From the NCBI RefSeq assembly GCF_000003815.2, contig NC_049983.1, forward strand, positions 6,468,022-6,532,021: DNA of 64,000 nucleotides. Reading direction: 5' to 3'. Below the pieces are notes generated by a model. It was not told where the DNA came from and made no database searches. It worked only from the letters and a program-made list of their open reading frames with translations. Position 1 is the stretch's first letter. The number at the start of each line of letters is the position of its first letter. This document shows positions 5,406-38,894 of this stretch, piece by piece. Both the position numbers and the translations under genes were made by a program. This DNA comes from Branchiostoma floridae. Its lineage: Eukaryota; Chordata; Leptocardii; Amphioxiformes; Branchiostomatidae.

Positions 5406-6507
5406 TAGTCCATGGGCCAGCACCCCAAATTTCACATATCGGTACCCTCCGGGGTGGCAAATTCTCCTTGTTATTTTTGAATAGTAGAAGGCCTGTGGCA
5501 TATATTTTGACGTGATAGCCATTCTGGTATGGTAGCTTTCTACCGGCTATCACCCTTCAAACCTATCACCACCTAAATGATCTGGAAATTTCGTGTCTTC
5601 AATAAGGGGGAGGGGCAAAAAATTAAACATCAATATTTTTCCACGAAAATTCACAGGCTGGTAGAACCTGCTAAGAGGATCATAAAAATATCAATTGATT
5701 TCTGATATTGTGATTCAACACGAAATTATGACTGCCTAAAATCATATCTTTTGGTGATTTTCTGGTGAAAAATATATACTTTACGTTCCAATATCGTTCA
5801 TTTATTCACATTACCTATGGGGCCTTGCCTGATGAGTTAGACTTACCGTACCTATCCTTCTCTGCATATTAAGCTTTAAATGATCGAAATCCATCAATGA
5901 AATCCGGAGATATGAATGTGTGAAGAATGACACATCTGCCAGCTTATAGTGACAATATCGTTGCTAAGGCCGTTGCTAAGGCTGTTGTTAAGGAGGTTTC
6001 AGATCGTACTCCACAACAAAACTGATGCAAAGAACTTACTTTTCTGTAGTATTTTACTCTAATTACATCAGTAGAAGTACATGGAATCGTGTTAAAATGT
6101 TTAACATGTAACAGATGCAGAAATGTGTTTTTTTTACGTCATTTCTTTCAGAATCGTTAGCAAAACTGTTGCTAAGGCCGTTGCTAAGGGTGTACTCAGT
6201 CATGTTTCAAGCCAAAACAGCAGAGAGTCAAGTTCTCTGACGCCTGATTTTGCTCCTGTCATCTTGTAAATCATACTTAATTGTGAAAAATATCATAATT
6301 GATTGGAAATGTTAATTTGGGCTCTACATGGGGGTTATAAGGATACCTGAAAATGAATTACCTTGATTTCACACATTTTTTTACAAATCTTTTGCTCTTT
6401 TTCGTCATTTAGTAGATACCTTACTAAGATTCACAGCGTATATCTAGTATGTCGTACACAATGAAAAAGGCTCTGCATGGGGGTTACCGGCACCACATAT
6501 GTGACAC
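5406..6507 (+). repeat. Left 1.1 kb inverted repeat arm
   Basis: Mirrors 10731-11823 throughout its length. Shared landmarks include the GTTGCTAAGGCCGTTGCTAAGG units, 'GGGGGAGGGGCAAAAAATTAAAC' fragments and the inner border CACCACATATGTGACAC. Only scattered substitutions and small indels separate the arms, which implies a recent origin or ongoing gene conversion. Confidence 0.85.
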
Positions 6508-10730: not shown

Positions 10731-11823
10731 GTGTCACATATGTGGTGCCCCGGTAACCCCCATGCAGAGCCTTTTTCATTGTGTACGACATACTAGATAT
10801 ACGCTGTGAATTTTAGTAAGGTATCTACTAAATGACGAAAAAGAGCAAAAGATTTGTAAAAAAATGTGTGAAATCAAGGTAATTCATTTTCAGATATCCT
10901 TATAACCCCCATGTAGAGCCCAAATTAACATTTCCAATCAATTATGATATTTTTCACAATTAAGTATGATTTACAAGATGACAGGAGCAAAATCACGCGT
11001 CAGAGAACTTGACTCTCTGCTGTTTTGGCTTGAAACATGACTGAGTACACCCTTAGCAACGGCCTTAGCAATAGTTTTGCTAACGATTCTGAAAGAAATG
11101 ACGTAAAAAAAACACATTTCTGCATCTGTTACATGTTAAACATTTTAACACGATTCCATGTACTTCTACTGATGTAATTAGAGTAAAATACTACAGAAAA
11201 GTAAGTTCTTTGCATCAGTTTTGTTGTGGAGTACGATCTGAAACCTCCTTAACAACAGCCTTAGCAACGGCCTTAGCAACGATATTGTCACTATAAGCTG
11301 GCAGATGTGTCATTCTTCACACATTCATATCTCCGGATTTCATTGATGGATTTCGATCATTTAAAGCTTAATATGCAGAGAAGGATAGGTACGGTAAGTC
11401 TAACTTATCAGGCAAGGCCCCATAGGTAATGTGAATAAATGAACGATATTGGAAAGTAAAGTATATATTTTTCACCAGAAAATCACAAAAAAATATGATT
11501 TTAGGCAGTCATAATTTCGTGTTGAATCATAATATCAAAAATCAATTGATATTTTTATGATCCTCTTAGCAGGTTCTACCAGCCTGTGAATTTTCGTGGA
11601 AAAATATTGATGTTTAATTTTTTGCCCCTCCCCCTTATTGAAGACACGACATTTCCAGATCATTTAGGTGGTGATAGGTTTGAAGGGTGATAGCCGGTAG
11701 AAAGCTACCATACCAGAATGGCTATCACGTCAAAATATATGCCACAGGCCTTCTACTATTCAAAAATAACAAGGAGAATTTGCCACCTCGGAGGTACCGA
11801 TTTTTCCTCTGGCCCATGGACTA
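10731..11823 (-). repeat. Right 1.1 kb inverted repeat arm
   Basis: Reverse complement of 5406-6507. The inner border reads GTGTCACATATGTGGTG and the outer border CTGGCCCATGGACTA. Differences from the left arm are isolated, for example near the outer end, where the left arm reads CACCCCAAATTTCACATATC and the right arm differs. Confidence 0.85.
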
Positions 11824-35292: not shown

Positions 35293-35771
35293 TATATCAT
35301 AGTGTAACGATTGTGCAAACTTTAAGTCATAACAATAATGCAACTAAGGTTTAAAGCTTTAATGAATCTTTAATCCTTGGTGCAATGGTCACATTCCAAC
35401 TTTATAAAATAATTATAGAAAGTTTATTTGCAAGTTCATGGCTGGAGGCCAATTGCAAGTACATGGTGGAAACATAGGGGACATACATGTGACAATGAAC
35501 AGTGATTAGCCTGATTAAATCTCGCTTATAGCAGCCCGCCAAACATCCGCCGGCCCCCTGGGGAGGGACCAGTTACAGCCCTGGACAGCGGAGTTTGTGT
35601 TACACAGACTAAACATTGTAAACAAGAAGCTACTCGAATCCTAACGTTAGTGTTGGCTATTTGTATTTATAAAGTTAATGTTATAGAACATCCTAAGTAA
35701 GTAACAGTTATAATGTTAACCACAGGACATGTACCAAGTTCTTTACAATGGGTTATCCGTGTCTCAAATTG
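35293..35771. other. No gene seen
   Basis: Intergenic sequence between two mobile elements. No recognisable frame, repeat or RNA gene. Confidence 0.4.
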
Positions 35772-35775
35772 TATC

Positions 35776-36063
35776 CTATTTGTCCTGTTCGCCATTGATC
35801 CTCCGGTATGAAGTGATGCGGAAAACTGCCGTCTGAAGCCTAAAGTTGTCTGTGAGCTAATGCGCCCGCCGTATAGCGGGCGCCCAGCACCGCCCGAAGC
35901 GAGAACATGTCGAGGGTTGGGTGGGCGGGTTCGCTTTAGGCCCCAGACGAGGACGGAGGATCTGGCAGCATGCACGTTGTGCTCAGGTGTGCACCTCTAT
36001 ATATACCTGGTAACCGGAAGTGACGTCATCCCTATCGGACCAATGGGCGAACAGAATAAATAG
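35776..36063 (+). mobile_element. Short derivative (288 bp) of the element at 36068
   Basis: Its first 59 bases match 36068-36126 and its last 101 bases match 38792-38894, so it is an internally deleted copy of the larger neighbour. Its ends CTATTTGTCCTGTTCGCC and GGGCGAACAGAATAAATAG form a short imperfect inverted repeat. TATC flanks both sides (35772-35775 and 36064-36067), a likely 4-bp target-site duplication. Confidence 0.7.
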
Positions 36064-36067
36064 TATC

Positions 36068-38894
36068 CTATTTGTCCTGTTCGCCATTGATCCTCCGGTA
36101 TGAAGTGATGCGGAAAACTGCCGTCTTTGCCCCAGCCCTCTTTGGCTGTTATGCTCCTACCTATTTCCGGCATTCAATTGCTTTCACTTCGTCGCCTCCC
36201 TACTATGATACTTTCCAAAGGTATCTATTCGCTCCTTTCCTCTTCCTGAATACTGTTAAAATCACTCCCTATCTTCATCCCGTCTTCCCGTCCTTATCAT
36301 CACTCTCTCACCTTTCCTCTCCCCTTACCCATCCAATCCCTTTCTTATATCTCTCGACTTGTCCCCCACACTTCATCATGTTCTTCTCTGAACTTCGTCA
36401 AAACAACGTTTACCCACTCTAATCGGCCGCAGCGCGCGCTTCGAAAACTGAGGGAAAATCAACGCCGAGAATACCGACCTAAATTTCTCCACGTACAAAA
36501 GTTGAGCGAAAACAGGAAGGAATGAAAATTCTTCGAATGCTATCCTAACTTCTCGGCAACTATTGGAACCACGCCCTTCTGATGTCCCATAAAGGGAGCT
36601 CTCTAGTGCATCTGGCAAAATCCGCAATGTTCCGAAAAACAACAAGATCCTATGCGCACAATTTCAACAAAAAAACGCAAAACATATTGCTCACTCCATT
36701 CCTTATGCCCGTGTCCCACAAACACTATAACCAAGCCTCAGTCCGGACCAAGTCCTTACACACTCCCGCATAGCATGTTATCCAGCCTTCCGCGGAACCG
36801 GTCGCGCTGGATAAAATCGCCAAATGTCAAACAAGAGCGTACACAACTTTTAGGGTTTTCCAAGAATCCAGCTTTCCGCGGAACCCCTTCGCACTGGATG
36901 ATATCACAATAAATCACGAAAAAGGATTAAAAGAACACAATTTCTCGGATCGTCCAGCCTTCCGCGGGAGCCCTTCGCACTGGATAACGTCACACCGAGC
37001 TGAAGAAAGACTGCACATTTTTTTTTTTTTGGTCATTCAGCTTACCGCGGAACCCCATCGCACTGAATGATATCTTGCCGTGCTATAAACGGCGTCAGAC
37101 CAAAGACGTTCTTGGTCAGACCAATCTCAAAACAGGGTTGCTCGATTAGTTCCTAACCCTCCAGCATCCCGCGGCACCCCATCGCACTGGAGAACGACAT
37201 GTCAAAATCTATTTACGAAAAGTAGGGGGAAAATGACTTACAGTTCCTTGAGTTGTCGGCGGGGTTAGCTGAACTGACCGGCAGGGGCTGGGCGGTGTCG
37301 GGGACTGGAGCGCCAGTCGACCCTGATCCTCTGACCGCTGTCCCTTGTAGCACTATGTTCGGCATAAAGAACATGGTTCACAACATAAAACATCACAGCC
37401 TAACTATTCGGCTAACAGGTTCCCGGCGTGTCTTGAGCCCTCTCTGCTGCTAAGGCTTGTGCAGGCCACCAACGGGTCCTATCAGGCCGCACATCTGGCG
37501 AGGTTGAGGGTGGCTATGCCGGCTCTGGGTGGTGGTGTGTCCCGCGCGTCCCTGTTGTTGGAGGGGGAGAGCGTCAAACCTGCATGAACAACACGTGAAC
37601 AATGAGACAATGGGAAGGGACGGGCGCCCGGCAACAGGTCCGGTCCCAGACAGACAAGTCTACAGACATACGCATCTTCACACCGCCCAGCCTCCACATG
37701 CGAGCGAGCCGCGTTACGGGAGGTTATCTGGGCCACGCGTGTCCACAACTCAAACACCACACCTTACAGGTACGCACTCATACACATGCAAACTAAAACA
37801 AATGGTAGCAGAAAACCCCAAACACAGCCTCGACGTTCAATCTAGGAAAGCAAAAGAAAAATTCTACCTGGCTAAAAAAAAAAACGGAAATGACACCAAA
37901 TCGTACCAACTGCGGCCTTCCAAGCTCAGATGGGTTGGCTGAACGCCACGCCACGCTCTCTCAGAGGGGTGTTAACTCCTGAAAACAAAGAACCAGGGGG
38001 TCGCCATCTTGCCTCCTGGATCATGCCATCGTCGTCCCCTGTTCCTGCCTGAAAATTTTCACGGAAATCAGAGAATGACATAAAAATCTGGAAACTCTCG
38101 TTCTGCTCCACACTTCAGCATTAAAAACCAACACCCACAGGTCTCCTTCGTAGGGGAAAAAAGGGTACAAAAAACATGGCGAGGACAAAGGAATTTCATA
38201 GAACCACCATCTTGCCATGTGGGCGCCAACTATCTGCTTGGATGTGGCTGTCGAACGCTGCTAAAACATACACAAGGTCACGAAATCACACAAGAATCAC
38301 TCAGCTCCACGCGGAACAGAACGCCAGCGTGAACTAAAGGCGTCCTAAACTCGACCCGGCCTAGGATAAGAGGCTTGAAGCTGTAAAACGAAAAATGGTG
38401 TAAGGCGGCCATCCTCCCCCGAGCCGCTAAGAGCTCATACATATGAATACGCGATAGAAATGCAAATGTTAGAACAAACAGCCGGTCCTCAGAATTCCAG
38501 GCATCCAGCACAGCAAGAACGAGGACGGTACATGTAGCTCTGCACTCCTGAAAGCACACACGGTAATTGAAACACGAGAGAACACAGAATATCTCGTCAA
38601 ACCTTCCGGGGGACCAACGTCCCCCGTACACCGACCCGGCGATACCGCTAAACCCTCGAGGTCCCTTCGGCGTCCCAGACCGACCGTCTCTGGGCGCTGG
38701 AACTAACGCAAACCTCCTGTCGGCATCTTCAGCTTGGACATGTTTGCTTCGGCGGTGCCGGTGGAGTGTGGACCCAGACGTGGTCGGGGAATCTGGCAGC
38801 ATGCACGTTGTGCTCAGGTGTGCACCTCTATATATACCTGGTAACCGGAAGTGACGTCATCCCTATCGGACCAATGGGCGAACAGAATAAATAG
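36068..38894 (+). mobile_element. 2.8 kb transposon-like unit ending 134 bp before IDH3G
   Basis: Starts CTATTTGTCCTGTTCGCC and ends GGCGAACAGAATAAATAG, a short inverted repeat shared with the 288-bp neighbour. The interior includes a pyrimidine-rich stretch (36180-36420), five covarying hairpin repeats (36780-37192), and CpG-rich sequence from 37250 on. Frames of up to 174 codons (38278-38802, minus strand) exist, but no transposase, integrase or reverse transcriptase motif is seen. TATC precedes it but CCAT follows, so a target duplication is not conserved. Superfamily not recognised. Its right part (CpG-rich, with TATATATACC at 38832) may supply or disturb the IDH3G promoter. Confidence 0.6.
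36780..37192 (+). repeat. Array of five hairpin repeats with compensatory stem changes
   Basis: Copies at 36780-36812, 36866-36899, 36952-36985, 37035-37068 and 37159-37192. Each has a six-base stem arm, then a conserved loop with CCGCGG and CCC..TCGCACTG, then the other arm. Starts lie 86, 86, 83 and 124 bases apart. The arms read ATCCAG/CTGGAT twice, GTCCAG/CTGGAT, ATTCAG/CTGAAT and CTCCAG/CTGGAG, so two copies keep pairing through double changes. Copy 1 also gains a seventh pair. The linkers are unrelated to each other. Family not recognised. Confidence 0.8.

Follow-up and report, generated by a model that had tools for sequence, protein, structure and literature searches.

The stretch of Branchiostoma floridae DNA analysed here (the window: 64,000 nucleotides, positions 6,468,022 to 6,532,021 of contig NC_049983.1, RefSeq assembly GCF_000003815.2) contains a 3124-bp mobile element at 35771-38894, the body of which holds an array of five hairpin-forming units. 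Comparison with further copies in the genome (513,431,437 bases in 431 contigs were searched; L001, which is the window copy itself, is excluded from the counts) shows this interval to be one mobile unit of layout A1-x-B1|A2-body-B2, i.e. one that carries an inner copy of its own terminal junction. We think the chances marginally better than even that selection has kept the array as a hairpin signal acting in cis, and that the element around it, noncoding and non-autonomous, behaves like a tyrosine recombinase (YR) retrotransposon of the PAT/Ngaro layout. A preliminary description of this DNA had placed the array in a transposon-like unit with no recognised enzyme, and rightly so, as the array lies inside a mobile element in which no coding signs were found; amongst the three roles that it proposed for the array (a recognition structure for replication, a processed small-RNA cluster or transposase subterminal sites), the first remains the best.

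The borders and layout of the element follow from its genomic copies and from repeats within the window, where 35939-36063 and 38770-38894 match across 125 bp (96%) and 35766-35834 and 36058-36126 across 69 bp (99%). The left terminal repeat A1 (35771-35834, beginning GTATCCTATTTGTCCTG) equals its inner copy A2 (36063-36126) across 64 bp; the right terminal repeat B2 (38770-38894, minus strand) has its inner copy B1 at 35939-36063, the final 85 bp of which are identical to B2. B1 and A2 meet at an internal junction, AAATA-GTATCC-TATTT (36058-36073), in which inverted arms enclose a 6-bp spacer, A1 and B1 are separated by a spacer x (35835-35938), and the body occupies 36127-38769. Homology between copies at unrelated sites starts at about 35771 and stops at 38894, and the element ends are inverted repeats, offset by 5 bp, of which the right one stops at the element border. 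A reading of the window alone as two separate tandem transposons, U1 (35776-36063) and U2 (36068-38894), was dropped because the same junction occurs at dozens of sites. Full copies that were read measure 2.8-3.2 kb, and one copy of 7.8 kb contains a nested long interspersed nuclear element (LINE).

Genome-wide, the left-end 17-mer has 61 + 50 matches and its reversed-pattern controls none; amongst the 100 of these 111 matches that were listed, 84 form 42 pairs spaced 217-297 bp apart and 16 are single. The junction 17-mer has 29 + 19 exact matches (48 in all, against 0 in both reversed-pattern controls), which correspond to 45 junction-bearing elements once three double matches are merged. 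The array accompanies nearly all of these, an array match lying no more than 2.5 kb from the junction in 44 of the 45 and the exception being a copy only about 1.35 kb long; array matches across the genome number 44 and merged array loci 61.

The terminal repeats agree closely within individual copies. Of 42 loci compared, among which the window copy counts once, both A1 and A2 are exact in 33, and nine have fewer than two exact A ends; in 30 of the 33, A1 and A2 differ by no mismatch across 60 bp, and in the remaining three by one. B1 and B2 likewise show no mismatch across 85 bp in 13 copies out of 16 that have an ungapped B2, a comparison that kept copies in which B2 equals B1 at no fewer than 70 of 85 ungapped positions and is therefore biased towards identity. 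Outside it stand L031, in which B2 differs from B1 by a 1-base gap, L029, which has no B2 within 5.7 kb, and the other 15 of the 33 copies, which are short loci stopping in or before B2, or loci without a match. Between six groups of copies, A identity is 0.74-0.99 and falls below 0.90 in 13 of 15 comparisons, and B identity is 0.58-0.99 and falls below 0.90 in 14 of 15. As the repeats agree within copies and yet differ between subfamilies, the ends must be regenerated. An internal junction acting as template for both ends has been proposed for elements of the DIRS order, and joint renewal of the ends in each copy is what would be expected if the internal junction were to template both.

The same identity within copies bears on a different account, in which an ordinary DNA element has formed a tandem dimer (a short A-x-B joined to a long A-body-B), the hairpins are passengers, and their paired changes arose by template switching at quasi-palindromes. 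That the ends are inverted repeats, that covariation events are few, and that a solo 283-bp A-x-B lacking A2, body, B2 and array exists (L045, the one read of the 12 A ends, amongst 58 listed, that have no array nearby) would all suit such a dimer. It would, however, still need regeneration of the ends to explain A1/A2 and B1/B2 identity within copies despite the subfamily differences, and it sits poorly with the absence of any observed target duplication and with linkers that diverge far more than the units; moreover, the solo is equally what excision or deletion by a recombinase at the junction, with loss of A2-body-B2, would leave. We accordingly regard the dimer as unlikely. A further observation on the family is that L006-L009 and L011 have ends about 99% identical to those of L041 together with an array of the window type (95-96%), and ends and bodies seem to have been exchanged between these subfamilies.

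Insertion shows a target preference. The 16 copies that have both ends show A in the left flank at -1 in 14 cases, at -3 in 13 and at -4 in 14, followed by GTATCC, and a right flank without clear preference; no target-site duplication was found in the flanks of these 16 copies, which have at most the border G in common. The target, AA[A/T/C]A|G, resembles the element's own right arm, AAATA|G; in L034, which is outside this set, the right end reads AAATA-AG. A terminal inverted repeat (TIR) transposon with a 4-bp TATC duplication was ruled out, the right flanks being without TATC. YR sites, in the available text of PMC3212892, consist of two inverted repeats of 11-13 bp split by 6-8 bp, and the junction AAATA-GTATCC-TATTT fits this general form, albeit with imperfect arms and with cleavage points that are inferred; it may be a recombinase site, or the copied junction of a circle.

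The lack of target duplication, the 5-bp offset of the inverted ends and the inner copy of a circle junction are also features of a rolling-circle, Helitron2-like element, for which a Rep-helicase would produce circle junctions and tail-to-head tandems and the hairpins would be replication structures. To our knowledge, renewal of the kind seen for A1/A2 and B1/B2 has not been described for Helitrons. The target AA[ATC]A|G, and a right inverted repeat that ends at the border, are unlike the Helitron2 elements covered by the available text of PMC3627910, and we consider this origin very improbable.

Turning to the array, units 1 to 5 lie at 36779-36821, 36865-36908, 36951-36994, 37034-37077 and 37158-37201, as delimited by unit alignment, folding, and searches with a hidden Markov model (HMM) and a covariance model. 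The five repeats are real and stand where the preliminary description had put them, with spacings of 86, 86, 83 and 124; its unit of about 34 bases was too short, since the units measure about 44 nt, and the array, at about 36779-37201, is slightly longer than it had given. The linkers, which it called unrelated, are so (four linkers and two array flanks, p of at least 0.06 in 15 of 15 pairs). Within the window, the unit pattern with up to three mismatches finds four of the five copies, against 0.00 expected from 100 shuffles, copy 1, which has an indel, being missed. Genome-wide it has 105 + 89 matches, with none in controls, and a covariance model of the five window units, the kind of model that had been proposed, yields 203 matches in 40 sources and 11 more in L041 and L042. 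With an HMM based on sequence alone, 214 units are recovered from 42 loci, five in each of 38 loci, four in L020, six in L037 and L042 and eight in L038; units are spaced 74-105 bp apart, and the last gap is 111-204 bp. The enlarged array of L038 (4699-5358) has a near-exact 80-bp period (80, 80, 80, 80, 80, 77).

Between the internal junction and the array lie about 715 bp; the distance to the left end of the element is about 1.0 kb and that to the right end 1.7 kb, and the 283-bp solo has ends without an array; the suggestion of subterminal sites is thus not supported. Conservation was compared across 10 chosen loci (nine comparisons, with the first 35-36 nt of each unit scored), in which units were located by likeness, so that the figures somewhat favour them. 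Between the window copy and seven divergent representatives, identity is 0.88-0.93 in the units, 0.53-0.80 in the linkers, 0.35-0.83 upstream of the array and 0.34-0.78 downstream; for two close relatives of the window copy the units stand at 0.98 against 0.91-0.95. Given linkers so much more divergent than units, the units are not mere passengers, and on these alignments the array is among the best-preserved inner parts of the element. Linkers between the most divergent copies are only 53-59% identical, on which basis we read the family as old. The array is not the sole constrained inner part, since other body blocks are conserved, e.g. 37511-37690, with an identity of 0.87-0.95 when the window copy is set against L042, L027 and L037; this block is less alike in L038 and L025, which carry gaps there.

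Spacer x is a second part that is predicted to fold, so that the element holds at least two. The segment 35833-35947 gives a strong stem-loop (-54.5 kcal/mol, z -3.2) that is kept across subfamilies, and a long stem-loop is common to eight aligned copies (the window copy, L007, L016, L021, L027, L041, L042 and L045; consensus -41.5 kcal/mol). In five of six copies z is -3.2 to -5.0 on the plus strand and -3.5 to -5.0 on the minus strand, the sixth, L042, giving -1.5 and -0.5, respectively; control segments from the body pass z -2 in one of five cases on the plus strand and in none of five on the minus. The covariation term of the spacer alignment is unfavourable (+0.49).

Each unit of the array can form a 6-bp outer stem and an inner stem of 3-4 bp. 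The stem changes first noted in the window were accurately reported: C-G becomes T-A in copy 4 and A-T becomes C-G in copy 5, copy 3 has a G-T pair, and copy 1 gains extra pairs. The argument drawn from them, that double changes point to a folded molecule, is weak for the window alone and gains modest support from other genomic copies. Amongst 91 distinct rows, 84-90 keep the outer-stem pairs that lie inside the closing pair and 88-90 the inner-stem pairs; the closing pair itself is kept in 70 of 86 rows. For 29 chosen units read on the plus strand, 98.3% of cells are paired (shuffles average 94.1) and the covariation score is 0.172 (0.082 in shuffles); neither value is reached in any of 500 shuffles, although related rows inflate both scores.

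A tree of 38 of the 42 loci, those whose arrays have exactly five units (which excludes L020, L037, L038 and L042), separates shared changes from those confined to single copies. If the closing pair is left aside, four changes fall on internal branches, all of which end paired and none unpaired: two are paired double changes (in unit 2 of the L026 group from C-G to T-A, and in unit 5 of L006/L007 from C-G to A-T), one leads from G-T to A-T, and one is a pair-restoring change that depends on the root. On terminal, single-copy branches, six of 16 changes are paired and 10 unpaired (Fisher one-sided p=0.043 against internal branches), as expected of copies decaying after insertion. The pattern that the preliminary description had named as speaking against folding, i.e. 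unpaired stem changes as frequent as paired ones, is therefore seen on single-copy branches and not on shared ones. Same-branch changes in both partners occur in three of seven possible cases for structure pairs, against 46 of 592 for other position pairs; a rougher tree of 44-nt units, since superseded, had given four paired double and 23 unpaired single changes over all branches. Taken together, these comparisons support, without proving, the maintenance of unit pairing by selection.

When the window copy is compared with L042 and L027, the differences follow no codon periodicity (5.7 being the highest chi-square of 86 windows), indels relative to L042, L027 and L025 are mostly of 1-2 bp, and the longest stop-to-stop frame in seven element sequences, two of them with approximate borders, is 235 aa; the four open reading frames tested from the element stretch or its edge gave no Pfam family. 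The units were also rejected as coding repeats, as they lie in different frames and show no codon signal. With no sign of coding for reverse transcriptase (RT), RNase H or YR, the element is at most a non-autonomous relative of YR retrotransposons, and would depend on a helper. The LINE in L041 (1943-6604), which has long open frames (a coiled-coil-like ORF1 and an endonuclease-RT ORF2), was rejected as an autonomous element with these ends, since it lies nested in a copy of the element, with a poly-A tail and a target duplication of 12 bp. YR genes are present in the genome, with 51 matches listed. Two YR elements, L043 and L044, are presumably of RNase H-YR and RT-RNase H-YR type, where the YR comes from the search and the other domain names are our assumption. 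YR families of similar score and frame length occur at G000:C18:2359682 (L043) and, likewise with 716-aa frames, at six further places, and at G000:C2:3824565 (L044) and others, and both are possible candidate helpers. The element had no match in phages, nor did the unit pattern have an exact match in viral contigs or prokaryote genomes.

Several results weigh against our reading of the array as a folded signal mobilised by a YR helper. In the window alone, two pairs are changed on both sides, a count reached by 20 of 500 shuffles and six of 120 row permutations, so that covariation there is only suggestive. Under stricter counts the plus alignment is not exceptional (of 500 shuffles, 37 have as many pairs changed on both sides and 72 as many pair types), nor is the minus alignment (91 and 344 of 500, respectively), which slightly lowers the odds for folding. 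In units 2 and 5 there are internal branches that lose the closing pair 2-35, for instance by a change from C-G to A-A, and the folding energy of single units is unremarkable, three of 10 folds passing z -2.5. The strand is likewise unsettled, the plus strand pairing 10 positions in 98.3% of cells and the minus strand 11 in 94.4%, and the G-T at 17-25, found in 85 of 91 rows, pairs on the plus strand only. As to a helper with these ends, none was found: the YR matches listed (51) stay at least 23.7 kb away from the A-end and junction sites listed (60), either list being perhaps incomplete, and neither L043 nor L044 has such ends in the 4.5 kb read of each.

It is from these weaknesses that the main rival, namely that the units are sites in duplex DNA for a recombinase, an accessory factor or a transcription factor, derives part of its appeal: stricter covariation counts are not significant, neither strand is clearly ahead, much of the unit is nearly invariant in sequence rather than in structure alone (CCGCGG, TCGC), and spacing is near-regular in many arrays, as in L038. 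On this account the inverted hexamers would be dimer half-sites kept for contact and not for folding. Two-fold symmetry is, however, limited to the outer 6 bp, the core of the unit being asymmetric, and two stem changes on internal branches hit both sides together, which half-site recognition does not need. We therefore take duplex binding to be possible but on balance improbable. A processed small-RNA cluster, whether microRNA-like or a source of piRNA, might be suggested by an array of similar hairpins; hairpins of 34 nt are short for microRNA precursors, and no Rfam family reached its gathering score in the window, the two sub-threshold matches in the element both lying outside the units, so that such a cluster appears highly improbable.

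On the preferred reading of a cis-acting hairpin signal, a mechanism can be proposed that would give each preserved part a role. B2 contains the motifs TATATATA (about 38829-38836), TGACGTCA (about 38852-38859) and a CCAAT-type motif, which are promoter-like, and their order suggests a putative promoter reading the minus strand. A transcript starting there would cover the body, with the array, and then the internal A2-B1 junction before it reached the far end. We lean towards the array acting in this minus-strand RNA, in which two extra positions, 8-29 and 1-36, alternate between U-G and C-G. As a gene-free element keeps only parts that aid its copying or movement, or that avoid harm, and as the ends and junction serve recombination, an array that is repeated, folded and far from both ends most plausibly loads a helper protein onto the transcript; we infer that it is most likely a protein-binding platform in the element RNA, i.e. 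a multivalent one for the Gag or reverse transcriptase of the putative helper YR retroelement, by which the RNA would be chosen for copying. From the internal B1-A2 junction as template, both ends could then be rebuilt, and the circle so formed, which would carry AAATA-GTATCC-TATTT as its site, would be inserted by the YR at AA[A/T/C]A|G sites without target-site duplication.

More tentatively, and with rather more doubt than confidence, the family may represent a protein-free class of YR-type elements that has a multi-hairpin array as its core, every array read having 4-8 units, and whose helper protein grips folded RNA (or single-stranded DNA) repeatedly. In that case the array would act in cis to mobilise an element of the DIRS order, and would bear on how YR retrotransposons of this order choose their RNA; no report of such an array in an element of that order was found in the open papers searched. 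A noncoding relative amounts to a natural deletion experiment on cis signals, in that the parts that survive, i.e. the ends, the internal junction, the folded spacer x, the hairpin array and some body blocks, are candidate signals that are small enough for testing. The family also offers a case in which stem changes common to many copies can be compared with single-copy decay.

Elsewhere in the window, exons of an NAD isocitrate dehydrogenase (IDH) gamma-type gene lie downstream of the element; one of these matches a solved gamma subunit (E 7e-9), and a second matches Pfam Iso_dh below the cut-off only. The right end of the element (38770-38894), with its promoter-like motifs, lies about 134 bp upstream of the probable first exon of this IDH3-gamma-type gene (ATG at about 39028, read by eye), which it may influence. 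A 1.07-kb inverted repeat (5438-6507 and 10731-11801, 98.6% identity) flanks a stretch with an N gap, and is possibly a long-inverted-repeat element.

Comparison with known systems places the element closest to YR retrotransposons. CACTA, hAT and Mutator are TIR transposons with subterminal repeats, and with them the element shares short repeated motifs within a non-autonomous unit; it differs in the position of the array (about 1.0 kb and 1.7 kb from the ends), the absence of a fixed-length target duplication, and the internal junction. Non-autonomous relatives of a YR transposon are known for Crypton, and no terminal repeats were found in animal Cryptons, as far as the available text of PMC3212892 extends; whereas a Crypton has a YR gene and no long terminal repeats, the element has long split repeats and inverted arms, with no coding signs. 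Helitron2 is described, in the portion of PMC3627910 available, with a 3' inverted repeat 20-30 bp from the end beside a hairpin, with insertion at T tracts in Chlamydomonas examples and, for Helitron2/Helentron, with compensatory changes in the end features of two related elements. On that partial account the likeness extends to the asymmetric inverted ends and, for some elements, to the lack of target duplication, and the difference to target, hairpin position and repeat layout. For the PAT/Ngaro type, the accessible parts of PMC4157794 and PMC8547959 give split layouts of A1-B1-A2-B2 or A1-[ORFs]-B1A2B2, and those of PMC3266345 give integration of DIRS1-like elements via a 3-bp junction sequence without duplication. 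Whilst the element differs from these in giving no indication of genes for reverse transcriptase, RNase H or a recombinase, in having a 104-bp folded spacer between internal junction and outer end, and in its hairpin array, which those parts of the sources do not mention for PAT/Ngaro, it resembles them in its split direct repeats, which read A1-[body]-B1A2-B2 on the minus strand, in its inner copy of the terminal junction, and in insertion without target duplication at short, junction-like sites.

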